From IMG/VR virus record IMGVR_UViG_3300048592_000174, positions 1 to 40,251 of that record: DNA of 40,251 bases; one strand, 5' to 3'. Under the pieces are notes generated by a model. It had not been told where the DNA came from, searched no databases, and saw nothing but the letters and a program-made list of their open reading frames with translations. Positions 8,431 to 39,203 of this stretch are shown piece by piece (positions within the stretch are counted from its first letter, which is position 1; each line of letters begins with the position of its first letter). The translations under genes were made by a program, and so were the position numbers. The DNA comes from a virus.

Positions 8431-11400
8431 TTACAGTTTACTTTGATTCAATTTGCTTTGAGCAACATTAAGTAAAACCCTTCCATTAAAAGGAAGATTA
8501 CTAAATAATCGTATCTTAAAATACTTATCTTTTATCGGTATCTGTTGCCATTGATTTTGAGTATAGTTGATATTATATGGAACCTTATCTATATAATAAT
8601 CACTCTGTATATTATTCCAATCTGCTGACATTACAGGAACTCCTGTACTCAAATCTCTAATAGCTGAAATCCGATAATTTCTTTCAGTATGTGTACAAAC
8701 CTTTTGTGTATTAGACCATCCGATATGATACAATGGTTTAGGAATTATAGCTTGTTTTCCTGTAGATTGATTTGCTGTATAGATAACAAAATTATCAAAA
8801 GTGGGAAAGTCTTTTTCTAACCATTGTTTGTTATTTTCATCATATTGTAAAGTCTGTGCGTAATATTCTATACAATCCAGATCAGATGTCACTGGACTAA
8901 ATACTACATATTCTATGACAAAGTCTTTCTTTGTTCCATAATATGTTTGATAATCTCCTGTATGTGCATATATAGAATCTCCATTTGCAGAATATAATGC
9001 ATCAAAATTACAGAACATGTAATCCGGAAAATAAGAGTGGAAACTAACCCACATATCATTCTTAAATGAAAAGCTCATTGTCCATGAACTATTCACCCCA
9101 TCAACTAAATCTGATTTATGTACAATTAATCGTTTAAATCTAGGATCATATCCACAGGTAACATAACCTGATGCACTTACAGGTAAGTTTTCTTTAAACC
9201 ATTGCTGACATCCATAATTATCACCAGTTAATTCCTTATACTCATCTCCAAATAAGAATATCTGTCCTGCTTGAGTATCTACTGTAACAAAACCATAATC
9301 TGTTTCCACATTATCTAAATAGAACTGTCCACCACCAAAACCATAACTTACTTTATTTATTTCAGCAGGAGGTATAGATAGGAAATCTCCAGTACCTAAA
9401 TATAGACTGGATGCATCCGTATTAATTTCTTGAGGATTGGGTGTTAATGCGTATATCGATCTTGTACTCCTTACAATCAATCTATTCTTTGAATAACTTG
9501 CTGCTGTAATAGGAGATGTTCCTACCGTAGTATAGTTTTCAGATAAGTATATTCTAAACGCATCATTCGATTCATCTGAGAAAGAAGTATTAGACCATAT
9601 GATTCGATTAGGAAATTCTTCCGCACAATCAGAACAATAACTGTAATTCAGAGGAATGGGTAAAAAGTACTTACCGAAATACAATCTGTTAAAATCTGTA
9701 TTATAAGCATAATACTCATATATACGTTCTCTGGTTTTTTCAGTAGCTTTATTATCAATATCAATATCTGCAATCTTACGAATGAAATAGGTAGGCAAGT
9801 CTCCATCAACGTACACCTCGTTATCATCTGTTCCTACCACTCGTAGATCAAATGGAATTTCACTTTCAATGTGCAGTTTTAATCGTTGACAAGTAAATGT
9901 CAAATCAGGATTAGAACCTACAGCTTCTATACCCTTTAGCCACATGTTATTTACATAGAAAGGAGTAACATAAATGTCCCCATCGAATATAGTTGCTGTA
10001 TCTGTATATATCTGACTAGTTAACGGTTTATATAGTAATCCGAATAAATTCTGATAAGGCTGTATAGTTGCTTTCTTTAGAATGTATGTTATTCCATAAC
10101 TTGATGAAGTTGGAAATACATCTTCCAAGCGAACAATATTAAATAGATTCAACCATGATGCATTTATCGCTGCTGGATCTATAGATGTTTCCAGATAACC
10201 AAGAGATACTTGATCTGTTATTGCAGCATAAGTCGGTGTATTAAAGGAAGCTGTTTTTGAAAACTCATACACCGTTGCTTCCGTATTCAAATCGATAAAC
10301 GGACCTGCTTGAGATTCATCAGATAAATCAAATACTATTTCTGAAAAAGTAGTTAATGTAACAGATTCTGTAGAAAGCACAGATAGGTATTCCGCATTAT
10401 CACTATCTCCCTTTAATGTTTTAGGAGTTATGATTCCAATTTGATTCTTTACTCCTGTTCCTACTAATAGATCGTAATAAGAATATCTTCCATCAACTAC
10501 GGCTGTATTCTGAAAAGCAATACCCCCATCTACAACTGTCTTTTGAGTTCTAGGACTAAAAAGTATTTTATAACCTATACAGTCATCTGGTAAAGCAACA
10601 TTACTAACCTCAATACCTAACTTCGATGTTGGAGTCACTAACGTCTTAGATGGGAACCTGTGGTATCTTACATTTTTACCAATTAATGATCCAAATACGT
10701 AATTGTCATCACATGTTTCTGTTAAAGGATAAGTTTCATTGCTTTGATAATAACCCATTTTACCAGTAACATCAGCAGTGGAATATACTTTCCATTTAGG
10801 AACAATATCTCCGTTAACATATCCAAATGCTTTTACTTCACTCTGATTTATATCTGTTCCTACAACTAATCCTATCTCATCATTAGCATCAATTGCTCTA
10901 CCTGGAATATGAAATGCAGGCGAATGTGTGCCATCTGCATGTACGTATTGAATAGCAAACGCATATATTTCATCCGATTGAAAAGAGGCTTCCGATTTAT
11001 TTTGATCAGTTATTTCTTTAGATGTCCATTTAATTCGAACAGAGTTACTATATCTCTGATATTTGGAATAATCTTTAAAAGCTGCTTTTACATTCTTTCT
11101 TACAAGCCGCTTATCAATAATCTTTATCACTTTAGAAGTATCGTAGATTACTTGATCCACATATACACTTTCCTGATCTATACGGCTTCCAGTTATTTCA
11201 TTTACAGTATATCTAACTGTTTCACTAGCAGGTATTAATGCATCTAATTCTGTAGCCTGTACTGCTCCACTTATAGTACTGTAAAGAGCAATTAGTTTAA
11301 TATACGGATACGAAGTATCTATTCCAGTTATTTCGACATTGATACTTTTGTTTACATAATCTACACCTCCTTCTTCAAGTGTGGATATTTCCAAATTGAA

Positions 11401-13051: not shown

Positions 13052-13635
13052 GGTTCAGATATTTGTTGAATATGATTAGGATTCTCTTTGAAATACTTAT
13101 TTATAAAGCCGTAAGCTCCCTGTTTATGCAGCATTAATCCCCATAAACCAAGATACTTTGCGTTATATCCGGTTCTTCTCCAAATAACCGCCCATTTATA
13201 TCCATCTATATGCTTATTCATATACCGCTTACCTTCCTCTTTATGTTCTTTATAATATGTACCAGCTTCTTCTTTGGTCATATTATACTTGGCCATTATA
13301 GTTGTCAAGGTAGTATGTATATCAATTCGTTTCTTTTTAGGTTTCCATTTAATCAACTGAAGTTCCCCAATTAAAGAAGAGAATCTGTATACCTGACCTG
13401 AAATTAAATGAAGCACTAAATATTTGAGGTACGTTACTATAATCTTTCTCCACTGTTGGTAAGTTAGCGCATAAGCATGATCCGATACTTCATCATTAGT
13501 TAGATACGGTAAGCAGGTGACACATTTCCTTTTCTTATATGGATACATAAGATAGAAATGTTTCAGTGTCATCTTCTCATTTGGATCTGAAATAAATTTA
13601 CCGTATTTCCGGGTTTGTGTCTGCACTACTGTCAT
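13048..13635 (-). CDS. Basic conserved-type tail-module protein, 195 aa, function unknown
   Basis: A strongly basic protein rich in Lys, Tyr and Trp, with KWKPKKKRID near residues 97-106. It has a CVTC pair near residues 38-41 and a predicted helical C-terminal half (TKEEAGTYYKEHKEEGKRYM). No membrane segment or signal peptide is seen; the LKYLVLHLI stretch near residue 70 is short and probably a buried helix. It lies between two ring-type genes, overlapping the upstream one by 38 bases and the downstream one by four. That context suggests a tail-assembly or tail-ring component; the positive charge would suit contact with DNA in the tail lumen. No domain is recognised, so the function is open. 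Confidence 0.7.
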   Translation of the reverse strand: MTVVQTQTRKYGKFISDPNEKMTLKHFYLMYPYKKRKCVTCLPYLTNDEVSDHAYALTYQQWRKIIVTYLKYLVLHLISGQVYRFSSLIGELQLIKWKPKKKRIDIHTTLTTIMAKYNMTKEEAGTYYKEHKEEGKRYMNKHIDGYKWAVIWRRTGYNAKYLGLWGLMLHKQGAYGFINKYFKENPNHIQQISEP

Positions 13636-14254
13636 CTTTTAATGATAAAGGTACTTTCAGTAATTCAACTGCTAATTTAAGTATTCCATCAGCATCTGCT
13701 TGGCTGATTCCGGTTTCCAAATCATATATGTTAACGCAAGGATTAGCTTCGCTACAATACTGAATACTATTCCAATCTACTATATTTTCCCAAACACCTT
13801 CCACTTGGATAACTTCCATATCTGTAGTATTATACAGATAAAGGTGCTGATTGTGAATATTCCATCGAATAGCATTTTTCTTTATAGGATCATATTTATT
13901 CGACTTTAATTCATAATCTTCACTGTATCCAACTAAACTTCCACCTAATGTTTTAACTTGTACAGCATCTCTATATCTACCTGTAAGCGGTCTTGGTATA
14001 GAATAGATACTTTTTAATACTTCACATCCAACATCTACACATTCGCAATCATGCGCTTTATCTAATTCTAATTTAATACAGAAACGATGAGTTGCCCAAG
14101 CAGAAATAAATTGCTTTGCTTTAATATCGTTTGATGCAATTCTGGCTCTGGCTTTTACAATAAGTGACCAAAGAAATGATTCTGGCATATCCGAATCATT
14201 GGATACTTCTTCTATCAATATTTTCAGATCTGATATTAAATCACCTACGGTCAT
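13598..14254 (-). CDS. Probable tail ring/connector protein, about 218 aa
   Basis: The preferred start is ATG 14254, because it overlaps the TGA of the nuclease gene as ATGA; an alternative in-frame ATG at 14281 would add nine residues. An N-terminal helical region (TVGDLISDLKILIEE, then a long helix through FLWSLIVKARARI) is followed by a Cys cluster (HDCECVDVGCEVL), IPRP, a beta-rich body and a C-terminal helix (ADADGILKLAVELLKVPL). Helix, beta, helix is what ring proteins below a portal look like, and the neighbours (basic protein, 336-residue ring, muzzle) support a tail-stack role. The Cys cluster could bind a metal or form disulfides. Alternative: a completion protein for the head-tail joint. 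Confidence 0.7.
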   Translation of the reverse strand: MTVGDLISDLKILIEEVSNDSDMPESFLWSLIVKARARIASNDIKAKQFISAWATHRFCIKLELDKAHDCECVDVGCEVLKSIYSIPRPLTGRYRDAVQVKTLGGSLVGYSEDYELKSNKYDPIKKNAIRWNIHNQHLYLYNTTDMEVIQVEGVWENIVDWNSIQYCSEANPCVNIYDLETGISQADADGILKLAVELLKVPLSLKDDSSADTNPEIR

Positions 14255-15015
14255 AGTATTAATTTTATTAAATCTGGACAATCTGGAATATCAATCCTCG
14301 ATATAGTATTTGGGCGCACATTTAAGATATACATTCTTGCTATACGAATGGATGTGTATTTCTCAATGCAATGCTTATAGAAATTCAACTGTAACGTATA
14401 CTTATTAAAATTACAATCGCTCAGGAATTCTAGTGGTGGTAAAAATGTAGTAAATCGATTACTGTATTTAATTTCTTCATCTGTTTTGTAATCAATTAAT
14501 TCTATATCATTCGATTCTTTATTGAAAAATAAACCATCTAATTGTCCTGCGATCTTAGCATCATAATCCGCTACAATGTATTCCATTCTTATAGGAATGA
14601 GATGTTTATTTTCTTTAACAAATGAATCAATTAATTTATTACCTGATAATTTACGAAACCATGCTTTTTCAAAATCAGCATGTACCTGTTTACCATTAGC
14701 TAATGCAGTGTCCGATTTTGCTTTCCATTTCGAGAGTATATCAAAAATATCAATATGAATATCTTCATAATGAAGAATCTTTCCATCATATGCAATATGA
14801 TCTTGCGGGACACCTCTTGAGCTATGTGATTTAACATGTGCACCATTTGCTTGAAGCTGCTTATATTTAGCCCAATATATTTCATTAAACGGTTCCTGAA
14901 ACTTCTTTATATGTGTAGTTGCAGAAGTAAATTGCTTATTTCCCCAGTGATACGAGTGATCTTCTTCTCTAAAGTAGACATCGTTAAACCGTTCAAGTTC
15001 TTGTAATATATTCAT
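14251..15015 (-). CDS. PD-(D/E)XK superfamily nuclease (RecB/Cas4-like), 254 aa
   Basis: Motifs of the RecB-like nuclease branch appear in order: ANGKQVH with H112 and a following E116, E145 in RMEYIV, D160 in AGQLDG, D175 and K177 in LIDYKT, and Q209 with Y213 in LQLNFY. These correspond to the H, D, D-x-K and Q-xxx-Y positions of that family, so the active site looks complete. The enzyme should cut or trim DNA with Mg2+. It sits inside the tail genes, starting as TAATG with the stop of the Ig-like protein gene and ending as ATGA with a ring-type gene. I recall crAss-like phages having a nuclease of this type among tail genes. It might process packaged or replicating DNA, or degrade host DNA; the sequence does not decide which. 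Confidence 0.88.
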   Translation of the reverse strand: MNILQELERFNDVYFREEDHSYHWGNKQFTSATTHIKKFQEPFNEIYWAKYKQLQANGAHVKSHSSRGVPQDHIAYDGKILHYEDIHIDIFDILSKWKAKSDTALANGKQVHADFEKAWFRKLSGNKLIDSFVKENKHLIPIRMEYIVADYDAKIAGQLDGLFFNKESNDIELIDYKTDEEIKYSNRFTTFLPPLEFLSDCNFNKYTLQLNFYKHCIEKYTSIRIARMYILNVRPNTISRIDIPDCPDLIKLIL

Positions 15016-16952: not shown

Positions 16953-17218
16953 AACATAGTTATTTGAGCATCACAAGATACACTTACATTAAGAAAAGAA
17001 ATAGATCCGGAACAATTGGAAACAGTTGAAGAACTGCTACAATCAGCTAAAACCAGATAATCAAACGGGGTTCCACTTAAATCGACAGTATCACATGAAT
17101 AAATGGACATGAATACACCTGTCAATTCTTCATCAGTTGGAATATCACAAATTATTCCATAAGCCTGTTTATAATAAACAGATTTCAGATAGTTATCAAT
17201 GACATCCGCAATTATCAT
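16949..17218 (-). CDS. Small Cys-rich protein, 89 aa, unknown
   Basis: An 89-residue acidic protein with six cysteines (near residues 24, 42, 60, 69, 80-81 and the SVSCDAQ region). The N-terminal half is helical and the second half is Ser- and Cys-rich and beta-like. No signal peptide or membrane helix is apparent. It overlaps the 139-residue gene by 23 bases and joins the Ig-like protein gene by ATGA, so it belongs to the same translational chain. The Cys-rich tail resembles the start of the following Ig-like protein in composition, so it may be an adaptor for that protein. The function is not recognised. Confidence 0.65.
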   Translation of the reverse strand: MIIADVIDNYLKSVYYKQAYGIICDIPTDEELTGVFMSIYSCDTVDLSGTPFDYLVLADCSSSSTVSNCSGSISFLNVSVSCDAQITML

Positions 17219-17615
17219 CTAATGATCTATTTAATCGTGAGTAAACTGATTTCATTGCGTTACAATCTACACATTGGCTTGCGGATTTCAATATAAAATA
17301 ATCCATTTGTATTTGCAAATTATAACTATCTTTTACACTATTTAATACTTCACAACCTACTTCTTGATCTACAAAGAAGCAGGATTTCTCTTTAGTAACC
17401 GTTGTAGATGTAGTCTTAGTAAGAAGAAAACTGTATATGCCATCTGCATAAGAACCGATTACATCATACTTATCTGTATCATATACATCTCCAGATTCAA
17501 TTACATATTCGGTTCCTTCAATATTTAATACCATTGAAGTTACACCTGAAAAGCTACTTAATAGAGTAGATTCAATAGTGAATGTTGTGAAATCACCGTT
17601 TATCGTTACTGTCAT
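17196..17615 (-). CDS. Small virion-type protein with C-terminal Cys motif, 139 aa
   Basis: The N-terminal 80 residues look beta-rich (TVTINGDFTTFTIE, then alternating hydrophobics). The C-terminal 55 residues look helical and carry Cys motifs: VGCEVLNS, then CVDC, then CGCH at the end. The spacing could suit a metal site or disulfides. VGCEVL also occurs in the 227-codon ring-type gene (VGCEVLKS). The gene overlaps its neighbours on both sides (23 bases each), with the holin-like gene upstream and the 89-residue Cys-rich gene downstream. I recall small proteins of this layout in structural clusters of Bacteroidetes phages but cannot name a function. Confidence 0.65.
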   Translation of the reverse strand: MTVTINGDFTTFTIESTLLSSFSGVTSMVLNIEGTEYVIESGDVYDTDKYDVIGSYADGIYSFLLTKTTSTTVTKEKSCFFVDQEVGCEVLNSVKDSYNLQIQMDYFILKSASQCVDCNAMKSVYSRLNRSLDDNCGCH

Positions 17616-17856
17616 TTTCAGTTGGTTTATCGGTTACGGTTAAATACCTACTTGTTCTTACGCCAATAGCACTAAGAACTAATACAATTATTTGAGAAAT
17701 AACGTTCAATATGGATTCTGTTTTATCAGATAAAAGATCTCTTACGATTATTTCACCGATAAAAGAATCTGCCATTAATAGTACAACAACTATTATGGCA
17801 TATGCTACAGGATTTTTAATCTTTAATGAATCGAATATTGCTGCTAATGTCTGCAT
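17593..17856 (-). CDS. Holin-like two-helix membrane protein, 87 aa
   Basis: There are two hydrophobic helices at about residues 17-38 (VAYAIIVVVLLMADSFIG) and 50-66 (VISQIIVLVLSAIGV), joined by a short charged loop. The C-terminal tail is hydrophilic and charged (KPTENDSNDKR). Size, two-helix topology and charged tail fit a phage holin, which would let the cytoplasmic amidase encoded upstream of TerL reach peptidoglycan. It follows the membrane-anchored PAS gene by three bases and overlaps the next gene by 23. Two other tiny two-helix proteins are encoded 2 kb away, so which one is the true holin cannot be told from sequence. Confidence 0.75.
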   Translation of the reverse strand: MQTLAAIFDSLKIKNPVAYAIIVVVLLMADSFIGEIIVRDLLSDKTESILNVISQIIVLVLSAIGVRTSRYLTVTDKPTENDSNDKR

Positions 17857-17859
17857 AAA

Positions 17860-18453
17860 CTAAGATTTAAATAAGTGTTCTATATAATAATCAGGTACAG
17901 CAATTCCAGCAGTACCAATCGTTACACCGTCAACTTCTCTAGGATATTTGATAACAAGTACATAAAATGTCCTCTTATTGAGAATGACTTTTTCTCTAGC
18001 GTATACAATACGATCTAAAGCTTTAACGTCATTATTCATATAATCGTTCGCAATTTCTTCAGGCCAAATATCTGTATCCTTTTTACCTATATAATCTAAT
18101 GCAGTATGACCTTGAGGAATTAAGAACATATCTTCATATGCCTTATTAACAGTAATTATCGTACCGTCTTTATCCTTTATCCATTTAGGGACAGGCATAT
18201 TCAAATGAGCAGATTCCAATTGTATCAATTTCACTTTTAAACCGAATACAATTTCTTCCAATGAATTAAGTTTATTTTTTAATTCATTTTCTGTTACACG
18301 AAGTCTGGTATTCTCTTCCCTAAATGCATTCAATATTGATTCAAAATCATCTCTTTTCTCTTTAGAACGGTGTACGATAAAATTGAATATAGCAGTTACT
18401 ACACCACCCCCTATAAAGGTTATGATTAGATTGACTAGTTGTAAATTCTCCAC
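17860..18453 (-). CDS. Membrane-anchored coiled-coil PAS-domain protein, 197 aa
   Basis: One transmembrane helix at residues 7-28 (VNLIITFIGGGVVTAIFNFI) is followed by a charged heptad-like coiled coil (about 33-80). A PAS-type domain follows (about 86-186), with W91, the KDKDG turn, a VNKAYEDMF helix, DYIGKKDTDIWP and a closing strand GTAGIAV. PAS domains sense small ligands, redox state or light; no kinase, cyclase or HTH output domain is attached, so any output must pass through the membrane helix or a partner. The stop is TAG. It is encoded directly before the holin-like gene. The TM-plus-coiled-coil layout recalls inner-membrane spanin subunits, but the PAS domain does not. A role in lysis timing is an inference from context. 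Confidence 0.8.
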   Translation of the reverse strand: MENLQLVNLIITFIGGGVVTAIFNFIVHRSKEKRDDFESILNAFREENTRLRVTENELKNKLNSLEEIVFGLKVKLIQLESAHLNMPVPKWIKDKDGTIITVNKAYEDMFLIPQGHTALDYIGKKDTDIWPEEIANDYMNNDVKALDRIVYAREKVILNKRTFYVLVIKYPREVDGVTIGTAGIAVPDYYIEHLFKS

Positions 18454-18477
18454 CTATTAAATGTTAATATGAATAAT

Positions 18478-19011
18478 TTAAAGATTGTCTCTATCTACCC
18501 ATAATTCCATTTTATGGGGTGTTTTTCGGTTACCACCGAACGATGGGCCTATGAAGCGATACATATTATCCGGCATTTCCCAAGACTTAGTTAATGTAAC
18601 TTCTTCTTTATTTGCAATATACGCTACAAAGGTAATAGTTTTTCCAACACGTTTCATTAAAACAATCAAAGAATCTTTAACATCTACAATCATGGGATAT
18701 AAATCCCATATCATTCCGCCTTTACTGTCATTAATATACCAAACAACTTCCCATGTATTAGGTTTATCTAAATTGGGTCTTGCTGCACACATTATAGCAT
18801 TTACATTATTAGGACTTATTGCTCCTGTAACTCCACATAACTTAAAATTCCAATCACGAGCATCCTCACCTAATACTGATTTATCAAACCAACAGCTTTC
18901 TGTAAAATTAATTTCCCAACGGTAATTGAAATTTCCTAATCTTGGTTTCAATTTTCTACCCAACTCCATAGGAGAAGAATAATGGGAATTCTTATTGAAT
19001 ACATATTTCAT
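18478..19011 (-). CDS. Unknown beta-rich protein, 177 aa
   Basis: A 177-residue protein with many Trp residues (about nine), alternating hydrophobic strands and three Cys (near residues 40, 59 and 74). It looks like a single beta-sandwich, possibly lectin-like (LamG or jelly-roll type), judging from the strand [20 protein letters not shown] and the final MELWVD. There is no signal peptide or membrane segment. The start overlaps the stop of the metzincin lipoprotein gene as ATGA, so the two are probably made together. It may bind a glycan or partner protein. No family is recognised with confidence. Confidence 0.7.
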
Positions 19012-19763
19012 TTATATTTAGGATTTATATCTTTAATATTTGATTTCATTGTATCCAAAGTTTGCAAGTGATACCAAGGATTTCTCCATGCTTGTCCACA
19101 ATAACTCATAATGCTGCCAGGTTCATTTATGTAAGCACATAAGGCTCCACCACAAGCATCTATAGCAGTTTTGTTTCCATTCCACACGCAATCATGTGTG
19201 TGACGGCTACCCATTAAATGACCTATTTCATGTACAATAACAAACACATCTAATTCCCTATTTCCAGTTACACCTACAACAGCAACATCAGAATTAGGAA
19301 TATAATTCTTACTTCTACCAAGTACATAAGCTATGCCCCCTATGTTTTGCTTGGTTAGATATACTGTAAATGTGCCTTTATGAGTTATTCCATTACGAAT
19401 CTTGGACATAAAAATCAATGCCTGTTTACTGTCTTTAAATACAGGTAATGTATCTAACTTAAAGATAGTAGCATCAGGTACGTAGGTTTTCCATCCCAAT
19501 CGTTTTAACTCATCAACAGAAGCTTTAACAAGAACTACTGATTCTTTAAAATTTAAGCTTTTATCCACATAAAAACTTAATGTAAAATCAGCAGTAGCCT
19601 TTTCAATTACCTGTTCAAAGTCATACGTAGTTATTCGGATATTAGATTTCTCTAGTATCTCAACAGGCTCTTCTGTTGCACAAGTAATATTGATTTCAGG
19701 TATCTGCTTCTCACATGATACCATAATGAGTGTTAGTATGAAAATACTAATAAAGCCTTTCAT
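19008..19763 (-). CDS. Metzincin-type zinc metalloprotease lipoprotein, 251 aa
   Basis: The N-terminus is a lipoprotein signal peptide: a basic start, a hydrophobic core (residues 4-13) and a lipobox ending at C17 (IMVSC), then EKQ. The catalytic motif [11 protein letters not shown] (residues 178-188) has the metzincin form HExxHxxGxxH, with H178, H182 and H188 as zinc ligands and E179 as the base. A Met-turn, SIMSYC with M219, lies about 30 residues downstream, as expected. Extra Cys (192, 204, 209, 222) may form disulfides, fitting an exported protein. The protein should be lipid-anchored in the host envelope and cleave proteins there. It is encoded between the 58-residue membrane protein (17-base overlap) and the 177-residue protein (ATGA). 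Possible roles: lysis, removal of surface proteins, or exclusion of other phages. Confidence 0.88.
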
Positions 19764-19923
19764 CTGGGAATATATTTACGAGTAATATATAAACGAGCGT
19801 TAATGTTAGTTCAATAGAAAGAGCAGCTACTAAAATATACCACCAATTTAGTATAATACAAACTACAGCAAATAATCCAAAGACTCCCCAAATAACCCAC
19901 ATAATAATCTTAATCGTTTTCAT
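19747..19923 (-). CDS. Tiny two-helix membrane protein, 58 aa
   Basis: The frame runs from ATG 19923 to TAG 19747-19749. The product is almost entirely two membrane helices: about residues 3-27 ([19 protein letters not shown]) and 29-52 ([19 protein letters not shown]), with a short basic N-terminus and a charged C-terminal tail (FPDERLY). The start lies 14 bases inside the end of the small lipoprotein gene and the stop lies 17 bases inside the metzincin gene, so it fills exactly the space between them; that supports it being real. It could be a holin, an antiholin or a partner of the lipoproteins. Nothing in the sequence chooses between these. Confidence 0.75.
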
Positions 19924-20143
19924 TTCTTTTTATTTCTAATAAGTTAAATTTCTGATTATACAGCTTTATCGTATCTCCTCCTCTATATAGATACCCGGGA
20001 GTTAGATGAAATCCGGGGTCCGTACTTTGGTAAGGTAACCGCCAAGACCCTTCCGGTATTTCAACAGGTCTTTCAACATACACAAAATAAATTCGTGTGC
20101 ATGACATCGAGAACAGTGCTGCGAGAATAATCAACTTATTCAT
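19910..20143 (-). CDS. Small proline-containing lipoprotein, o-spanin-like, 77 aa
   Basis: The best start is ATG 20143, which overlaps the end of the upstream two-helix gene by eight bases and puts a clean lipoprotein signal first: MNKLIILAALFSMSC, with the lipid-carrying Cys at residue 15. A longer in-frame start at 20164 would put a hydrophilic segment before the signal. The mature part is about 62 residues, with five prolines within about 30 residues (VERPVEIPEGSWRLP and following) and a charged end. Small proline-containing lipoproteins next to holin-like genes are typical of outer-membrane spanin subunits such as Rz1. No classical i-spanin is adjacent; the PAS protein with its TM and coiled coil is the nearest candidate. 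Confidence 0.75.
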   Translation of the reverse strand: MNKLIILAALFSMSCTRIYFVYVERPVEIPEGSWRLPYQSTDPGFHLTPGYLYRGGDTIKLYNQKFNLLEIKRNEND

Positions 20144-20303
20144 ACCCTTTATTTGGTAAGTCAATAAAAAACATTTTCAAAGCACCGAGGAACACAAGTA
20201 ACCATACAAATAAAAAACCAATGACCTGAAGCCATTCAATCTTCCATTGCCACCCTATCAGTAGAGCAGCAATGGAAAGAATTGATGCAATTAAATACGC
20301 CAT
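20136..20303 (-). CDS. Tiny two-helix membrane protein, holin-like, 55 aa
   Basis: ATG 20303 is preferred because it overlaps the TAA of the fibre gene as TAATG; an alternative ATG at 20321 would add six polar residues. The product has two hydrophobic helices: about residues 1-18 (MAYLIASILSIAALLIGW) and 22-44 (LQVIGFLFVWLLVFLGALKM), then a short tail DLPNKGYE. Trp residues lie at the presumed membrane edges. It opens the membrane and lipoprotein island and is followed directly by the small lipoprotein gene, an order (holin-like, then lipoprotein) often seen in lysis cassettes. Confidence 0.75.
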   Translation of the reverse strand: MAYLIASILSIAALLIGWQWKIEWLQVIGFLFVWLLVFLGALKMFFIDLPNKGYE

Positions 20304-23300
20304 TAATTTGCGACTATCCACCCAATGGTGGGGCCCACGTAAACAAATTTAGCAAATCCCTTATTCGTACTTATCACATGGTCCTGCGAACTACCATGTA
20401 AATTTTGAGCAGCAACAGTAAACGCTATGGTGATGTTATTTGCACCAGCCTGTCCTCTTGTATCACTTACCGCAAACCAATCCCCCGCAACCGGGGAAGC
20501 AGGTGCCTTTACAGCAAGTGCCCCGCCAGTGGTATTCATCAGTGTGATCTGGAATAGAACAGCTTGAGTGCTGTCAGTAGTACTTTCGGTAGATAGGTTC
20601 TCACGAACTTTGACCGCCCCATTGCTGTCTACAACCATATTTGCAGTTGTGGTATAGTTGTTGTCCCCCCTAAATTCAATGCCCCCATTCTCAAAAGCAA
20701 TACTTGCCCCTGATTCATAGATTGAACTATCTCTACCTACAATCTGGGGACGGAAACTTCCATCTTTGGTAAAGTTGGGTTGAACTAGTACAAGGGTATT
20801 TGTGAGATTTCCAAATCCAGCATCTCCGTTCACATCCAATGGGAAACTGGGAGTAGAATTTATGCCTACATATCCAGCAGCGTCTACAAGTACGTCTTGA
20901 GTAGCACCATCTACTCTTAGCTGTCCTTTAATGTATGTTGAATCAATAGTTGGATTATGAACCATACTAGACGAATCAGAAAAGATAAAGTTATACCAAG
21001 CGCTCTTGTAAAACTCCGGAGCGCCAGTAGTGGAGTTGATGGCGAAATCTCCATTCTTAGGTTCCACTGGCCGCTTAGCGGTAGTTCGATACGGAAGCGG
21101 AATGGTTCTCCAATCTGCATGTTGCGTAATTTCGGTCGACGCTAAATCCCAAATGTTTATCAATGAAACATCTTTTTCATCTGTAACTGCTTCACTTCGA
21201 ATTAAAGTTGGTAGACTTGACCCAGACAGATAAAACCCATCTCCAAATATTTTAGCATCGCTACGACTATCTACGAGATAAAACGTAGTGGCTCCGTTCT
21301 TATTCACGTAGATGTCTTTCATGCTAACTATTGCACTAGAACCAACAGCTTGAATTATCGATATATCAGAATCATAGGTCTTATTTAAAATCCCTAACGA
21401 TATATTTTTTATGGTCATAAATGTCGTGTCTGTTGTGGTTTGATTTATCGACCACATCGACGGCAGTGAAGTGGAAACAGGCATAAAATCACGCATTCTT
21501 ATATTTTCATAATTGGCTATTTTGAAGCCATTTCCGATAAATCTCGGAAATATGTTTTCAAAATAAACATTCTTTACCGAAAGTTCTTTTGTATTATTTC
21601 CAACACCTGATTCGATAACAGTTAATTCATGCGGACTTGCTGCTTTTCCTTTGTAAAATATCTTATCAATCGTAACAACACCATTTGTGTCTGTAAACTG
21701 AAAGACGCCGGGAGTTCCAATAGCCTGATTTTCGAAGTTTTTAAGCGTTATATTACTTGCGGAAAACACTGCGAACTCTTGAACAGATATGGCCCCAGTA
21801 CTATCCAATACCCAGTTATCCAGATTAACCTGTCCACTGTAATTAGTTGAATTAGTTATTTTCATTGCTAGGCCGCTAGCACCCCTAAGATTCACGTTTC
21901 TAAATTCTCCTTTCACCAAATCAACTATGTAGAAATAGTGAAATTTTGAATTTGATACGCCAAAATTAGCCCTGTCAGAAGAAAATCCATTAACATTGCA
22001 ATTTTCACATACGTTATAAGCCACTGGGTTTAATACTGAATCAGCAGTTATGTTTACTAATTCGAGGTTAAATCCGTTATTAATGCTTATCCCTGTTGCT
22101 CCGGTAGACATGTGAATGTTTTCGAACCTTATATTCTTTTTTAGATCAGAATCTTTACCCTGAAAGAAAGCTACATTACCGGACAATATTCCGTAAGTAT
22201 TGTCTACATCGTCATGGTTAAAATTCAATTCAGAGTACACTTTCAAGTTTTTTACCGTGAGGTTAGAATCCACCGTATTGATTGAAAATCCAACTTTTGC
22301 AGCACTCTTACCCTTAAACAATATCTTAGCACCATTTCCATCAACGATCATGTCGCTGTACAGGTTTATTGCTGCATCAGAACTATCAACAATGTACGTG
22401 CCTGTGTTATCACCGAAATAAACAGACGAACCTACTGATTTGGCGTATGCGGATGTTTTGGCAATTGCGGTTCTATCGCTAGTTGCATCCGAATTATCTG
22501 CACCAAACCATCTTGGATCATAACGTTGGCTATTCATAACTGCATACTTCCCACCACTCACTGGGATAACAGCTACTGTATCTGTTGTGTATCCAGTAAC
22601 AGCACTGCTTCCGACCAAATATTCCGCACCAGTACCAGTAATCTTAATGCGATCATTTACCTCAAATGGTCTTGAAGTAGCTACTGACGTAAAATCAGAT
22701 AGTGTAGGATATTCCAATACAATACTATCTCTTGCTTGAGACCAGCTCGCATTGCTGACTACTCCACTAGTACTTATTACTCTTAATGAATCTGCATTGG
22801 CTTCGCCAACATTGACGTGGCGGAGTTGCCCTTTAATGTAGGTGCTATCCGCTCCCGGATCATGGACGAAAGAACTATCAGCGCCGACAATAGTTTTACC
22901 ACTAAATAGCGTACTGCCGTTGAAATAAAAAGTTTTAGTTAGGTTCGGACTTGTATTAGCTCCAAACCCAAAACGATCTAAAGAATCGATTTGCATAAAT
23001 GAAACAAACCCTCTTGCTGACCCACTCCAATAGGGCTTGTAAAACAATACATTCGACATTACTCCGCTAGACGCATCGGTTACTCCCCCAATAGCATCTA
23101 CTTGCAGCCTGAAACCAATTTGGTCCGTATTCGTTGTTCCTACATATCCGGTGAAATCCAAAGTGCCCAAGTTATCGCCAGATTGCACCGCTGCTTTATT
23201 TCCATAGTATCCGCCGCGATACTTAGACATTCTCAATCTTGAACCTGTCGTTGCGTTCCTTATAGTACTTAATATCAATCCCCTTGATCCAGACACAGCT

Positions 23301-26011
23301 TGATTATTTATAGTGTCTGATACTATTTCAAATTGATTGGCTCCCGCTTGGTTGGTTCCTGACATAATTCCGCCGAAAGAGTTCATGTGAAACCACATTC
23401 TGCTGTTTGTGGCAAATCCCAATCTGTTAGACTCAGGTAAAAACACGCCGCTAGAAGGTACTGCGCTTCCGGTTGGAGTAAAACTAGTTGATGAAAGCGT
23501 AGTGCCATTCCATGTTAAGGATGCAGAAGTAGATGCTCGACCATTTCCATCGGTGTAAAACAAACCGTTTACATTCGCCCCATACCCACTTGAAGTTGCG
23601 GAACGTAACAAAGAATCGGCGTAAACTCTACCGTTGAATATATTATATTTTTCACCGGTTACTTGATGTATTATCGGTAACGCGGTTATCTTGGTTGAAG
23701 CATTGACATCTCGCAATATGCCCTTGTATGGTTCAGCAGCAAAAACCTCACCATCATCAACTCGATAGTTATACAGATGTAACGAGTTTGTGTTACTAGT
23801 GGTTTTAATCGTGTTGTCTTTCCCGGATTGGGAAACGTTTGCTATATGAATATTATGAACACGATCTGCATTAATTAAGTATCCCTTCCTGTTACTTGAA
23901 AAGAATCGCATCGTAGAGTTTGTCAACGAAAAGTCATCTACTCCCGGCGTAGCGCCACTAAAACCAATTTCAAACATATTTTCAAGGCTGTCCTCAGCAA
24001 CGGCTTCTGTATATATGTTATCAAAATAATAATTATCAGTTTTAGCGTACAAAACCTTATCTACATGCTCAAAAACACAATCTGACACGTGCATATCATA
24101 AATTGTGTTTGAATCAGCAACTATTGCCGCGTGAGCGTATGATATATGAGTATTGTCTAAATAAAACGTTGTGCTTCTGTTCCCACCAAGTGGAAAATAA
24201 ACACCGGCGCTATCCACTTCTCCAATACGAATATCTGATAAGTAGGTTAACACAGTCCCCGTTGCAACTACCCCGAATTTAGCGTATCCATTTCCATCGA
24301 TAAAGACATTATCCATTTGAAATGCGTCCGGTTCGTTCAAATTAATTGCAGAATAGGCAGGACTTATAAAAACCATTGAAATGTTTTTCAAACCTCCTTC
24401 CGCAAATTGGGTAAATCCACCAATGGAATTGTCTAACGATATAGCTGTCTTAGTGCTATCGTTTAAATTTACTGTTATTACAGGTTTGTAGATTCTACCA
24501 ACAATCGATCCAATTCCTTCAAAATTAACCCCATGTTTTGGGGAAATGGTGTTTGTAATAACTACGTCCTTGTCAATATATACCGTTCCGTAGTTTTTTA
24601 TAAGGTTAGTGTCGGACCTTGCGTTGGTAATGTTATTTCGGTACTGCATCACAGAAAAGAAGGCAAAGTCTGCGGCATGCTGTAACATCGTATCAGCACC
24701 CCACGTATCCGGGAAAAACGAAGCCCTTATATTTTCATTGGCGAAAACAGCATATTTGCCGTTCGCTAGCTTGGTGAGAAAATAATTGTCTGGCTTGATA
24801 TACCAACGCGCAGAACCCACTTCGATGAAGTTCGTTTGAGTTCCACGTATAGAGGTCAGCGAATCAACAACTAAGTATTCTAGTCCGGTGTCCCCTATCT
24901 TAATCCTCTTATTAAGAGGATAATCTGTTGCAGCAGCAACAGCGGTGAAAGCAGAAAGCGTGGGGTAAAAATACGTACTATCTGAAATCTCCTCCCTGAT
25001 TTGCGGCAGCGTAAAACCTGCCGTACTGAGACTCCAAACCCCGGTTGATCCCATAATAAAGATCGAATCATGGGGACTAGTGCCAATCAATAAAATAGAC
25101 CCTTGATCTGCATTTGTATAGGTAGCAGTATCTCCAACACTACCAGTGAACACTTCAACGCCAGTTCCCCACTTGGTAAACACCCATCTATTCCCAAGAT
25201 CAGTTTCTTGGGCAGACAGAATGATTACCTCCCCATTGCGAAGGGTGTAATTGCTAATGATGTTTTCTCCTTGAGGGAATAGACCATCCACCTGTATATT
25301 CCAAGTAGCATCTTCATCAAGAGCAGTTATAGTGACTGTCTTTCCTAAATCTTCATCACCTGGATTATTGAAATTAGCAATTAGATTGCTAGATGCGGGA
25401 GTAGTAAGATTTAAGAACAAACTGACTCCTCCACACCTGTCTACATATACATCCGTAGAATCGTTGCTCAAGTCAGTACCTCCATCATTGGAGTAGAAAA
25501 TGGCACAAGGTTTTAATGCAGATATACTGTCAGAGATAATGCCATTTACTGTTGATAAACTTACTCCACCGCCAGCACCTATAAGAGATGCGATATAAGA
25601 TTGAAAAGCGGAATAATCAGCAGGTGTCATAAATGAGGAATTGCTATCTCCCGTTTGAGGAGAAGCAGGAATACCATCTACAGATAATTCCATAATACCT
25701 GCACTACCACCAGATATAAATCCTGTAGCATTAGGATCAGTTACACGAAAAGTAATAGCTGTACCGGCTACCGAATAAATACTATCGATAACATAATAAG
25801 CATTACCTTTCCACATCCACATGCCAGTAGTAATATCAGATGCATAAAACAAACCTTTAGTATCATTGAAGTTTCCTGATACTAAAAATTTACTTGAGGG
25901 CAAAGAAGACGGGAAACCTGTTATTTGCAGGTTCCCCGACAACAAATTTACCTGCCCTTTAACGCTTACAGTAACTATAAGCAATAGAATAATATATATT
26001 AATCTTTTCAT
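20303..26011 (-). CDS. Giant tailspike/tail fibre with signal peptide and two beta-helix-like modules, 1902 aa
   Basis: Residues 1-19 (KRLIYIILLLIVTVSVKG core) look like a Sec signal peptide, which is odd for a virion fibre. After an N-terminal domain come two similar modules. Module 1 starts near residue 347 (YPTLSAFTAVAAATDYP, then WGADT near 436) and module 2 near 1100 (YPTLSDFTSVATSRPFE, then WFGADN near 1166). Each opens with a short beta domain and continues into Asn/Asp-rich strands typical of pectate-lyase-like right-handed beta-helices. A linker with STYIKGQLR recurs near residues 1057 and 1692. The C-terminal 250 residues resemble a fibre tip ending in GPTIGWIVAN. Such proteins bind or cleave host surface glycans; no catalytic pair can be assigned by eye. 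Much of the gene is less AT-rich than its neighbours, which suggests module exchange. Confidence 0.85.
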   Translation of the reverse strand: MKRLIYIILLLIVTVSVKGQVNLLSGNLQITGFPSSLPSSKFLVSGNFNDTKGLFYASDITTGMWMWKGNAYYVIDSIYSVAGTAITFRVTDPNATGFISGGSAGIMELSVDGIPASPQTGDSNSSFMTPADYSAFQSYIASLIGAGGGVSLSTVNGIISDSISALKPCAIFYSNDGGTDLSNDSTDVYVDRCGGVSLFLNLTTPASSNLIANFNNPGDEDLGKTVTITALDEDATWNIQVDGLFPQGENIISNYTLRNGEVIILSAQETDLGNRWVFTKWGTGVEVFTGSVGDTATYTNADQGSILLIGTSPHDSIFIMGSTGVWSLSTAGFTLPQIREEISDSTYFYPTLSAFTAVAAATDYPLNKRIKIGDTGLEYLVVDSLTSIRGTQTNFIEVGSARWYIKPDNYFLTKLANGKYAVFANENIRASFFPDTWGADTMLQHAADFAFFSVMQYRNNITNARSDTNLIKNYGTVYIDKDVVITNTISPKHGVNFEGIGSIVGRIYKPVITVNLNDSTKTAISLDNSIGGFTQFAEGGLKNISMVFISPAYSAINLNEPDAFQMDNVFIDGNGYAKFGVVATGTVLTYLSDIRIGEVDSAGVYFPLGGNRSTTFYLDNTHISYAHAAIVADSNTIYDMHVSDCVFEHVDKVLYAKTDNYYFDNIYTEAVAEDSLENMFEIGFSGATPGVDDFSLTNSTMRFFSSNRKGYLINADRVHNIHIANVSQSGKDNTIKTTSNTNSLHLYNYRVDDGEVFAAEPYKGILRDVNASTKITALPIIHQVTGEKYNIFNGRVYADSLLRSATSSGYGANVNGLFYTDGNGRASTSASLTWNGTTLSSTSFTPTGSAVPSSGVFLPESNRLGFATNSRMWFHMNSFGGIMSGTNQAGANQFEIVSDTINNQAVSGSRGLILSTIRNATTGSRLRMSKYRGGYYGNKAAVQSGDNLGTLDFTGYVGTTNTDQIGFRLQVDAIGGVTDASSGVMSNVLFYKPYWSGSARGFVSFMQIDSLDRFGFGANTSPNLTKTFYFNGSTLFSGKTIVGADSSFVHDPGADSTYIKGQLRHVNVGEANADSLRVISTSGVVSNASWSQARDSIVLEYPTLSDFTSVATSRPFEVNDRIKITGTGAEYLVGSSAVTGYTTDTVAVIPVSGGKYAVMNSQRYDPRWFGADNSDATSDRTAIAKTSAYAKSVGSSVYFGDNTGTYIVDSSDAAINLYSDMIVDGNGAKILFKGKSAAKVGFSINTVDSNLTVKNLKVYSELNFNHDDVDNTYGILSGNVAFFQGKDSDLKKNIRFENIHMSTGATGISINNGFNLELVNITADSVLNPVAYNVCENCNVNGFSSDRANFGVSNSKFHYFYIVDLVKGEFRNVNLRGASGLAMKITNSTNYSGQVNLDNWVLDSTGAISVQEFAVFSASNITLKNFENQAIGTPGVFQFTDTNGVVTIDKIFYKGKAASPHELTVIESGVGNNTKELSVKNVYFENIFPRFIGNGFKIANYENIRMRDFMPVSTSLPSMWSINQTTTDTTFMTIKNISLGILNKTYDSDISIIQAVGSSAIVSMKDIYVNKNGATTFYLVDSRSDAKIFGDGFYLSGSSLPTLIRSEAVTDEKDVSLINIWDLASTEITQHADWRTIPLPYRTTAKRPVEPKNGDFAINSTTGAPEFYKSAWYNFIFSDSSSMVHNPTIDSTYIKGQLRVDGATQDVLVDAAGYVGINSTPSFPLDVNGDAGFGNLTNTLVLVQPNFTKDGSFRPQIVGRDSSIYESGASIAFENGGIEFRGDNNYTTTANMVVDSNGAVKVRENLSTESTTDSTQAVLFQITLMNTTGGALAVKAPASPVAGDWFAVSDTRGQAGANNITIAFTVAAQNLHGSSQDHVISTNKGFAKFVYVGPTIGWIVAN
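20915..20977 (-). repeat. Fibre linker repeat, C-terminal copy
   Basis: This encodes DSSSMVHNPTIDSTYIKGQL (then R) in the fibre. It matches the copy at 22820-22879 at most positions, with one extra residue. It marks the junction after the second beta-helix-like module. Confidence 0.8.
22820..22879 (-). repeat. Fibre linker repeat, internal copy
   Basis: This encodes DSSFVHDPGADSTYIKGQLR, the counterpart of the linker at 20915-20977. It lies between the two beta-helix-like modules, so the two linkers probably moved or duplicated together with their modules. Confidence 0.8.
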
Positions 26012-36422: not shown

Positions 36423-38709
36423 ATTTTACTTTATTAGATAATGCACTGGAAATTAAACCTATAGCACTGGATTTAGATTTTCTATCTGCATAAAAAGTTT
36501 GCTCACCTATGGCTAAACTTAAACCCAATAATGCAGATACTCCATCGAAGTTACCGTTCAAGGTATACTGTTTTATCTGTCTTATCGTAAAAAGACAAGG
36601 AATTGTTTCAATAATTGGAGTAGGAATTTCATTAACTTCAACTTGAGATAAAAGCCAATCTCGTAATGCATCTACTAACGTCAATTTAGCCACCTTATCT
36701 CCAACTAAATATCCTGTTTGAGAAACGCTCTTCTCATACATAAACTGACCCTGTTCAAATTGAGGTCTCAAACACAACAGATGCATCTTCTTTCGCTTAA
36801 TAAAATAAGCCCTTACCTTATCTCCCCTATTTGCCTCATACCATAACCCCCTAACCGGATTACCATAAAAGGCACATCCTTTCTCCAATATCTCATTATA
36901 CGCATCTACTCCATTTGGATGTTTCCCAATATACGTAGCTGCCATTCTATTTCCCGGTAATCCATACGAATTATACTTAGGATTGACTATCCAATAACTA
37001 GCACCTAACGATCCACCTTTATCCCATTCATCACTAATATATGGATCGTGCAATATAAACACAGCATCATTGGGAATCATGCCATTCACCTTCAGTTTTT
37101 CAGGAGAAATATACATCATAAACTCTCCTTCAATTGACTTACCCGGTTTTAATGGCCATTCATATATCGGTTCATACTGTGTCTTTACCGTATAATTTAC
37201 TCCATTATCTGAATTTGAATCCCAATAAAGTTCAATAGCTGTGCCAAGCGTTTCATATAAATTATTACTCAATAATTCTTTTTCACGTTTCTCAGCTTCT
37301 TTACTCGGTAGCAAACCACCATCATAAGCCAACCACATATCCTCTATATCCAAAGGATAGTTCATTCGCTCATTTAATATAATCCTTGGATCTGGAGAAT
37401 TAGCTGCAACTTTCCTTCTTTCCAAGTAAAACTCTGTTCCAGCAGCTAAATCCGTATTCCCATCAAGATCCTTAAAATCCTTATTAACCATTGAAGCAGG
37501 TAAATACAATCCTGTTCCGTTAAACTCAATACAATTATAATCTACCGGATGCATCATAATGCTTTGTGCAGGCTGTACCGTTTCAATATTACCAGAAGTA
37601 CCTATACCAACCTGCACACCAAATTGCATACCGTTCGTAGTAACTACCGCCTGGTTAGAAAGCCATGCCTCTACCAATAAAGGTGTTAAACCAGTTTCCT
37701 CATAAATAACTAAATTTCTACGACCCCCTGCACCAGCAGCACCACCTTCCTTTTTATTAATCGAATATACCGTATGAAACAATGTAGAACCAGTCCCTTC
37801 CCTTACCCATTTACTTTTCTTCTTAACCATGTACTCATTAATCCAGGGATTTTCCTTATTATTCGCTTTATAAGAACCTTCCATAATCTTATAAAACGGA
37901 CATGGCTCATAATCATCATCCTCTGGATTTCCCCATACACCGAATTTTGAATCTGTAGATAAGCGTTCCATACTCGTCACAATCTTTTCAATCAACTCAC
38001 TGGATTTATCTACTTTTCCAGAACCAATATCTATTAACGCCTTTGTCTTTTGAAAAGGCTCTCCAATATTATAATACTTCTGACCATCAAATACCAACTC
38101 ATATTTAGCTCCCATTCCGGCAATACCATAACTCTTACCTGAACCCCGGCTTCCCATCACACTAAAATTCTTTGTTCCATTATGATACAAAGGTCTACCT
38201 TTGGGATTATCGTGGAGCGAATACAAATATTCTTGGGGATTAACATACTCCTTAAACGTACCATTAGATCGAACAAAAAAGGCCTTCTGTTTCAATGTCA
38301 TAGAAGACTTCTTAGCATTCAATATCCTGCTATCTGATGTATACACATCGTCATTTTCAAAACCTGAAAAACCAAATGCCTCAATAAAAGCATAAGCAAT
38401 TAGCCATTCTACATCCCTAATGGTGGGAGCTATTTCAAACCTTGTCTTATCCTCTTCATTAGTATCAACCAATGTAAAATAATTTCCATAAAACCCCAAC
38501 CTTCCAGGTACATACCTCCACTCATTGCCTTGAGGATACCATATTCCCTCAACACATTTTTTACGCATACCCTGCCAAAACATGATATATCTTGGATCAA
38601 GAGGATGGTATGTTTCCGCTTCAAATTGCTTCAGTATCCCTTTTAAATCCTGTATTCTAAACGGAACTACATAGGGTTTAGAGAGTTCTTGAATTCCTGC
38701 CATAACCAA
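36400..38709 (-). CDS. terL: Terminase large subunit (DNA-packaging ATPase-nuclease)
   Basis: A 769-residue packaging motor. The ATPase has Walker A GSRGSGKS (residues 186-193, K192) and Walker B NLVIYEE (332-338, with E337/E338). The RNase H-like nuclease has D555 (FILHDPY), E625 (LWYEANRGD) and D722 (NFDGVSALLGL), the usual three acidic residues. It has a long N-terminal extension (about 170 residues) before Walker A, as in crAss-like terminases. The start may be ATG 38703 (MAGIQELS) rather than 38709; either overlaps the amidase gene end by about 40 bases. It cuts concatemers and threads DNA through the portal, whose gene it overlaps by 23 bases. Confidence 0.95.
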   Translation of the reverse strand: MVMAGIQELSKPYVVPFRIQDLKGILKQFEAETYHPLDPRYIMFWQGMRKKCVEGIWYPQGNEWRYVPGRLGFYGNYFTLVDTNEEDKTRFEIAPTIRDVEWLIAYAFIEAFGFSGFENDDVYTSDSRILNAKKSSMTLKQKAFFVRSNGTFKEYVNPQEYLYSLHDNPKGRPLYHNGTKNFSVMGSRGSGKSYGIAGMGAKYELVFDGQKYYNIGEPFQKTKALIDIGSGKVDKSSELIEKIVTSMERLSTDSKFGVWGNPEDDDYEPCPFYKIMEGSYKANNKENPWINEYMVKKKSKWVREGTGSTLFHTVYSINKKEGGAAGAGGRRNLVIYEETGLTPLLVEAWLSNQAVVTTNGMQFGVQVGIGTSGNIETVQPAQSIMMHPVDYNCIEFNGTGLYLPASMVNKDFKDLDGNTDLAAGTEFYLERRKVAANSPDPRIILNERMNYPLDIEDMWLAYDGGLLPSKEAEKREKELLSNNLYETLGTAIELYWDSNSDNGVNYTVKTQYEPIYEWPLKPGKSIEGEFMMYISPEKLKVNGMIPNDAVFILHDPYISDEWDKGGSLGASYWIVNPKYNSYGLPGNRMAATYIGKHPNGVDAYNEILEKGCAFYGNPVRGLWYEANRGDKVRAYFIKRKKMHLLCLRPQFEQGQFMYEKSVSQTGYLVGDKVAKLTLVDALRDWLLSQVEVNEIPTPIIETIPCLFTIRQIKQYTLNGNFDGVSALLGLSLAIGEQTFYADRKSKSSAIGLISSALSNKVKYGRYIRS

Positions 38710-39203
38710 TCATATTTTTCATTCCCTATAATCACGGGCAAATACATTTTGGGACAATCTTTTCCAGTAATATCGTAATGTCTGTACAGATTATCCGAAT
38801 CAAATCCATATCTTTTAAACAACTCCTGCAATAACTCTCTTGTATTGCGCAACGTATCTATCCAATTTCCATCCTTATTAACGCACATCTCCACTCCTAT
38901 AAAGTAATCATTTGGATTACCTCTTTGAGGAACTAACTGTTTCCGATAAGGAAGATTACTTAATCTAGGCTTATCCCCAACATGCCAAGCAACTTCCATA
39001 TCCGGAATCAGTTGAACAACCTTCTTATCATCCACAATATAATGTGCAGAAGCACTTCTATTCGCATTATTAAAATACTTATAATGCGCATCTGCATCTG
39101 CACCTTTAGACACATTAGCTGTCCAATGCAATACAATTCCCTTTAACTCCTTTAAATTCCTTCTTGGACGATTCCTCACAATCCATTTCTGTTCGATAAC
39201 CAT
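38667..39203 (-). CDS. N-acetylmuramoyl-L-alanine amidase, T7-lysozyme type (endolysin), 178 aa
   Basis: The Amidase_2 fold is recognised by zinc ligands H26 (IVLHWT), H142 (YRHYD) and C150 (GKDC), with catalytic K148 and Y55 (SAHY). The spacings H26-Y55 (29) and H142-C150 (8) equal those in T7 lysozyme (H17, Y46, H122, C130). There is no signal peptide, so it is cytoplasmic and needs a holin to reach peptidoglycan. It is encoded before the terminase and away from the membrane island. Length is normal for a single-domain enzyme with no binding module. Like T7 lysozyme it could have a second role with an RNA polymerase, but nothing here shows that. Confidence 0.92.
   Translation of the reverse strand: MVIEQKWIVRNRPRRNLKELKGIVLHWTANVSKGADADAHYKYFNNANRSASAHYIVDDKKVVQLIPDMEVAWHVGDKPRLSNLPYRKQLVPQRGNPNDYFIGVEMCVNKDGNWIDTLRNTRELLQELFKRYGFDSDNLYRHYDITGKDCPKMYLPVIIGNEKYDWLWQEFKNSLNPM

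Follow-up and report, generated by a model that had tools for sequence, protein, structure and literature searches.

A PAS-tailed relative of crAss001-type lysis proteins, with a candidate holin beside it, in a late-gene island of a crAss-like phage

Layout of the island

This study concerns a compact island of seven open reading frames (ORFs) in IMG/VR record IMGVR_UViG_3300048592_000174, and in particular its gene for a protein that combines a transmembrane (TM) helix, a coiled coil and a PAS domain. The record, analysed at its full length of 40,251 nucleotides (40 kb, hereafter the window), covers part of a crAss-like phage genome, and every recognised gene in it lies on the minus strand; its TerL, portal and major head protein fall into PHROG head and packaging families, and TerL is 30% identical to that of Cellulophaga phage phi14:2. 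The island (17593–20321, minus strand) is flanked by the gene for a 1902-residue fibre (20303–26011) on one side and by an Ig-like gene on the other, and its ORFs overlap or nearly touch one another. Starting from the fibre, they encode a 61-residue TM protein, a small lipoprotein, a 58-residue TM protein, a metzincin lipoprotein, a 177-residue protein, the TM-coil-PAS protein and an 87-residue TM protein (Table 1). The original prediction, made from the nucleotide sequence, had described such a packed island with three two-helix membrane proteins, a metzincin, a membrane-anchored PAS protein, a beta-rich protein and an amidase 19 kb away, and our analysis largely bore this inventory out, with one main reservation: the 177-residue ORF is real, whereas its beta-rich character is read from a low-confidence model and it belongs to no recognised family.

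Table 1 Features of the window discussed in the text.
Feature	Position	Strand	Evidence
TM-coiled-coil-PAS protein, 197 aa	17860..18453	-	PAS_4; phi14:2 g078 ortholog; PAS-family hidden Markov model (HMM) matching the gp28 family; AlphaFold2/Foldseek; topology
Two-helix holin candidate, 87 aa	17593..17856	-	two TM segments; 3-nt gap to PAS gene
Amidase_2 endolysin candidate, upstream of TerL	38667..39203	-	Pfam 4.5e-23; PHROG endolysin 2.8e-37
Metzincin lipoprotein, 251 aa	19008..19763	-	Pfam Reprolysin above cut-off; host homologs
Small lipoprotein	19910..20143	-	ATG start 20143, ORF open to TTG 20164; lipobox-like FSMSC; 'VERPVEIP'
Two-helix ORF, 58 aa	19747..19923	-	two TM segments; chain test
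Two-helix ORF, 61 aa, overlaps fibre gene end	20136..20321	-	two TM segments; chain test
177-aa protein without family, beta-rich by low-confidence model	18478..19011	-	predicted local distance difference test (pLDDT) 44
Ig-like protein	17196..17615	-	ortholog in G006, E 3e-23
Ring/virion protein, synteny anchor	13598..14281	-	phi14:2 g074 2e-9; G006 1e-33

The PAS protein has a sensory fold and a predicted cytoplasmic orientation

The TM-coil-PAS protein matched PAS_4 (PF08448) at 4e-8, with 33.8 bits against a cut-off of 23.1. AlphaFold2 predicted a confident PAS fold for residues 85–187 (pLDDT >90), preceded by a long helix and ordered beta-beta-helices-beta-beta-beta, and Foldseek returned PAS domains for this model; the matches in the PDB are sensory PAS domains, VqmA and phage VqmA included. 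The protein has a single N-terminal TM segment, followed by positive charges and the coiled coil, and is predicted to be oriented N-out/C-in. This orientation, which would place both the coil and the PAS domain in the cytoplasm, was predicted from the charge pattern for 15 of 15 family members and for all four PAS-less proteins considered. Used as a lone query, the window protein gave no confirmed relatives, and alignment-based scans were required; the full architecture was found in 14 other lineages. A gene of the same architecture is also present in a bacterial genome (G015; L087 1405–1962), with no recognised lysis gene in the 3.3 kb of sequence covered, and may be either a prophage relic or a family member of cellular origin.

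The PAS protein is related to crAss001-type lysis proteins

When the profile of the PAS family was compared with all ORFs of the crAss001, cr85 and cr116 regions, the top matches (E 1e-6 to 7e-6) were the proteins annotated as 'lysis regulatory protein/holin', namely crAss001 gp28, cr85 gp78 and cr116 gp16. A profile restricted to the N-terminus placed the same three proteins on top (2e-5 to 7e-5), and crAss001 gp27, itself a TM-coil protein, scored 0.39; likewise, hhalign gave 92% for the lysis-protein family versus 2% for a control of gp27 and spanin-like proteins. Two structure-search matches, phi18:3 gp090 and phi19:1 gp108, also match the family profile (1.6e-10 and 6.7e-6), and an endolysin is encoded two genes after the former and five genes after the latter. 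Because the profile singles out the lysis proteins of crAss001, cr85 and cr116, the window protein is identified, at the level of sequence, as a known gp28-type lysis protein to which a C-terminal PAS sensor has been added. Adjacency to a lytic enzyme was found in phi14:2 and six other lineages and is absent from the window, where the amidase lies elsewhere; we have therefore named the protein a PAS-tailed variant, not a plain member of the gp28 family.

Next to the lysis protein of cr116_1, gp15 (L067 33829–34173) has 'ACRTTTRIVEVPVEV' close to the start given in its annotation, together with a TM segment at the C-terminus, and looks like a spanin whose start has been annotated too late.

An ortholog in phi14:2 and the same slot in other relatives

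Of the window genes that lie between the fibres and the ring protein, only that for the PAS protein has a recognisable ortholog in phi14:2 (g078, E 6e-28), and in a comparison of the window with phi14:2 proteins its score was second only to that of TerL. The ortholog is annotated as no more than a PAS fold protein and is 30% identical to the window protein over nearly the full length. In phi14:2, g078 overlaps the GH19 endolysin gene g077, which in turn overlaps g076, encoding a protein with an N-terminal TM segment; a member of the g076 family (phrog_25644) also follows an endolysin-like gene in L015. The position of the PAS gene among tail and fibre genes would fit a tail-cluster protein that is either part of the virion or ejected from it, which we regard as very improbable: tandem mass spectrometry (MS/MS) notes for the phi14:2 virion are attached to the flanking g074 and g080 and to none of g076–g079, and the text of the crAss001 virion atlas makes no mention of gp27, gp28 or gp30.

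Syntenic relatives that lack the PAS domain carry a TM-coil protein in the same slot (G003, G006/G011 and G002), and this protein, in several cases together with a small TM protein, is all that their slot retains of the island. The TM-coil protein of G003, whose gene overlaps one for an Amidase_3 enzyme, is alone among these PAS-less occupants in being weakly similar to the family (0.0034); those of G006 and G002 gave no match to the family HMM and were set aside as homologs, being analogues in position and architecture only. In G006 (L061 5658–8449 and 15411–18810), the genes for the major head protein and for TerL both come in two parts, with a 243-residue ORF between those of TerL, which suggests intervening elements such as introns.

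Lysis genes recur beside the PAS gene

Among the 14 other lineages, the gene directly beside the PAS gene encodes a peptidoglycan hydrolase or a DUF5675 protein in seven, or in five if DUF5675 is left out; crAss001 gp30, which bears the annotation L,D-carboxypeptidase/transpeptidase, belongs to DUF5675. The neighbours span five families: GH19 in phi14:2, GH108 in L022, M15_3 in L007 and L010/L011, M15_4 in L012, and DUF5675 in L015 and L018. At an assumed background of 3% per lineage, the binomial chance of these counts is about 6e-8 (7/14) and 4e-5 (5/14). Shared ancestry makes the lineages less than fully independent and weakens these figures, although five enzyme families are involved. Chryseobacterium phage MA9V-1 encodes a GH108 enzyme two genes from the PAS gene, and two genes downstream lies gene 195 (L005 8948–9580), an unannotated lipoprotein with a C-terminal TM segment and a candidate unimolecular, u-spanin-like spanin; similar lipoproteins are encoded at L011 4984–5442 (L010/L011) and L013 2988–3485.

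Two distant groups, the Brevundimonas phages and L021, encode a PAS protein that lacks the N-terminal TM segment, and a gene for a coil-TM protein directly follows. The L021 coil-TM protein matches a PHROG holin at 0.0019, and its gene is followed by those for a lysozyme, a two-TM protein and i- and o-spanin-like proteins. As some phages encode the PAS and coil-TM domains in one protein and others in two, the domains appear from their distribution to work together.

It is possible, though in our judgement unlikely, that the TM-coil-PAS protein is a general host-signalling or takeover protein placed among late genes by chance, given the many signalling roles of PAS domains, the three lineages without lysis neighbours and the stand-alone bacterial gene described above. 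The homology of its N-terminal half to crAss lysis proteins and its repeated pairing with different hydrolase families argue against such a role.

Within the L012 cassette (IMGVR_UViG_3300006467_000442), a 93-residue membrane protein (9661–9942) overlaps the start of the PAS gene and matches the ethylene-receptor N-terminal domain PF25487 (ETR1_N) at 3e-9, above cut-off, with a CGLHH motif. It is an odd, second sensor-like domain in a phage lysis cassette, and no other phage relative of it was found.

A holin candidate and a distant endolysin

The 87-residue protein encoded next to the PAS gene has the features of a class II holin in its sequence and TM scan: two TM segments, a predicted N-in/C-in topology, small size and a charged C-terminus. 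Its match to Phage_holin_1 (E 0.0075, 17.2 bits) lies below the 22-bit cut-off. Small TM genes also flank the TM-coil(-PAS) gene in G006/G011, G002, L008, L010 and L012; the 73-residue protein of G006 was considered as a homolog and rejected, having no detectable similarity. The lytic enzyme for which the PAS protein and the 87-residue protein act is probably the Amidase_2 protein. Its distance from the island had been presented as an oddity, which it is not: an endolysin gene next to that for TerL is also found in Flavobacterium phage Fpv1 and in G002, a metagenomic relative.

The metzincin and the small lipoprotein are probably accessory

The metzincin scored above the Pfam cut-offs for Reprolysin_3, Reprolysin_4 and Reprolysin_5 and, with HExxHxxGxxH and a Met-turn (SIMSYC), is catalytically intact by motif; its resemblance to fragilysin is at superfamily level, and that identification was rejected (16.4 bits against a cut-off of 190.7). 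Its relatives are secreted proteases of 600–1100 residues, encoded by 17 of 198 genomes from a single Bacteroidota class; it matches their catalytic cores with up to 74% local identity and is a trimmed copy of such proteases. None was detected in ten related phage records, two near-complete crAss-like genomes with this slot among them, or in INPHARED phages by tblastn; this absence is only moderately informative, given the fragmentary window and the distance of the phages with which it was compared. The Fpv1 'peptidase' gp21, which occupies the same slot, has no metzincin motif and was rejected as its counterpart. The metzincin is probably a separate envelope or exclusion gene of host origin.

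The small lipoprotein has a lipobox-like FSMSC that is non-canonical at -3 and is a candidate o-spanin-like or exclusion lipoprotein. Its neighbours are two-TM hairpins without a periplasmic domain, and an adjacent i-spanin, with a TM segment and a periplasmic coil, was not found. No homolog was found for it or for the 58- and 61-residue ORFs. The codon usage of these three ORFs is indistinguishable from that of non-coding sequence, 11–12 of 52 null ORFs scoring equally high. Since just 3 of 5000 shuffles produced a chain of three ORFs of at least 55 residues, and none of 45 plus-strand control ORFs had two TM segments, they are probably genes all the same. The 177-residue protein gave no family match, and the low quality of its model precluded a fold search; a 197-residue protein in the same slot of G006 is alike by eye and was rejected as a homolog by BLASTP and hhalign.

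The original prediction had joined all of these genes into a possible single module, for instance with sensor-controlled lysis and outer-membrane proteolysis, and had named a search of related phages for the gene set and its order as a check. The sensor-controlled part is supported for the PAS core, which is homologous to crAss001-type proteins and has relatives in lysis cassettes. A module made up of the whole island is not supported: the set is not conserved, neither the metzincin and small lipoprotein genes nor the two smallest TM genes recur in the relatives as that check would require, and the relatives of the metzincin are secreted host-type proteases. We think it improbable that one integrated system operates here, in which the PAS sensor controls lysis while the metzincin and small lipoprotein break the outer membrane in place of spanins. 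Such a system would agree with the tight, overlapping packing of the genes, with the lipoprotein-type signals of both proteins and with the lack of a visible i-spanin partner in the window; however, the window is a fragment, so that spanins may lie outside it, and no metzincin was found in a lysis context, the two viral relatives being domains of 802- and 2766-residue proteins in other contexts. A role in lysis for the metzincin and small lipoprotein is possible but unsupported.

With a little short of an even chance, in our estimate, the island holds a second group, devoted to the envelope or to superinfection exclusion and made up of the metzincin, the small lipoprotein and the two small TM proteins. 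Produced during infection and anchored in the envelope, these proteins would mask or shave the phage's own surface receptor, and their genes would share the island with the lysis pair for no other reason than that late accessory genes gather downstream of those for fibres. The lipoprotein Llp of phage T5, to which such a group would be similar, mediates superinfection exclusion through that phage's own receptor. The genes in question come directly after that for the fibre, none of them was found in syntenic relatives, and the host-like catalytic core of the metzincin fits the same idea; on the other hand, no receptor or exclusion phenotype is known, and the 'VERPVEIP' of the small lipoprotein resembles the 'VEVPVEV' of a cr116 candidate spanin, which could mean lysis. 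From their distribution, these four genes would be lineage-specific additions beside the fibre gene that the core does not need.

Other genes of the window

The Ig-like protein is probably structural, its context being other than lysis; as a query it found relatives in G006 and G011 only, both without PAS. The crAss001 lysis cluster likewise contains an Ig-like protein, the head fibre gp29. At the edge of the window, a frame of at least 1596 residues (3–4790) runs off the end and has no PHROG match; it occupies the place where crAss phages encode very large RNA-polymerase or cargo proteins.

Discussion

We favour, with some confidence, the reading that the island has at its core a pair of genes for lysis control, which encode the PAS-tailed gp28-type protein and the 87-residue holin candidate, in which the PAS domain sets the timing of lysis. 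The TM-coil-PAS protein would sit in the inner membrane by its one TM helix, holding the coiled coil and PAS domain in the cytoplasm, and together with the 87-residue protein would set the moment at which this membrane opens and lets the TerL-adjacent amidase reach the cell wall. The PAS domain might bind a small molecule or report energy or redox state, and its signal could shift the oligomerisation of the coil so that lysis is delayed or triggered. The family, topology, synteny and neighbourhood of the PAS protein are supported by sequence, and we infer its part in lysis regulation, a PAS ligand and its pairing with the 87-residue protein.

Several points weigh against this reading. The coil region can inflate profile scores, and the 'holin' status of crAss001 gp28 is an annotation for which we found no experiment; nor did the literature yield deletion or expression data for any family member. 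The endolysin of the window lies 19 kb from the PAS gene, and L009, L016/17/19 and the marine clade L033–L040 have no recognised lysis gene beside theirs.

More speculatively, and with the odds somewhat against it, these proteins may represent a class of phage holins or antiholins that sense directly, their own cytoplasmic PAS domain binding a host small molecule (possibly a VqmA-like signal) or a redox cofactor and timing lysis post-translationally, with no transcription switch; the domains would be fused in Bacteroidota phages and encoded by adjacent genes in others. Literature searches combining PAS with phage lysis found no report. Crassviruses are noted for delayed lysis and persistence, and lysis timing is little understood beyond a few coliphages; the fusion of a PAS domain with a conserved membrane protein of lysis points to an input to the lysis decision that can be tested, and its occurrence in the cultured phage phi14:2 makes direct testing feasible.

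The closest known systems share parts of this arrangement. Like the window protein, crAss001 gp28, cr85 gp78 and cr116 gp16 have one N-terminal TM segment, an N-out/C-in topology and a cytoplasmic coil; the crAss001 type lacks the PAS domain and belongs to a lysis cluster that also encodes a DUF5675 enzyme and a spanin-like TM protein, whereas the enzyme of the window is an Amidase_2 protein encoded elsewhere. The syntenic ortholog phi14:2 g078 differs from the window in being directly followed by the endolysin, with no metzincin found. Two PHROG families labelled 'hol-like chemotaxis', phrog_2658 and phrog_8369, for which we found no paper, match 5 and 2 of 14 PAS-family members and do not match the window protein itself at 0.001. 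The PAS domain of VqmA (Vibrio; phage VqmA 7dwm) gave the best sequence-profile matches in the PDB (5e-5) and is also among the structure matches; VqmA is a soluble helix-turn-helix transcription factor, unlike the membrane protein of the window, and PAS folds are widespread. Secreted Bacteroidota metzincins share HExxHxxGxxH and the Met-turn with the window version, which has the size of a catalytic core and is a predicted lipoprotein. The pair itself can be compared with an experimentally tested holin-like pair, mycobacteriophage LysF1a (88 residues, two TM domains) and LysF1b (one TM domain, N-out/C-in), where deletion of LysF1b disturbs lysis timing (PMC13056207). There, as in the window, a two-TM protein accompanies a one-TM protein of N-out/C-in topology whose cytoplasmic helix is long and charged (PMC13056207), and the predicted topologies are the same; the mycobacterial system has no PAS domain and a different host, and the comparison concerns how the pair may work.

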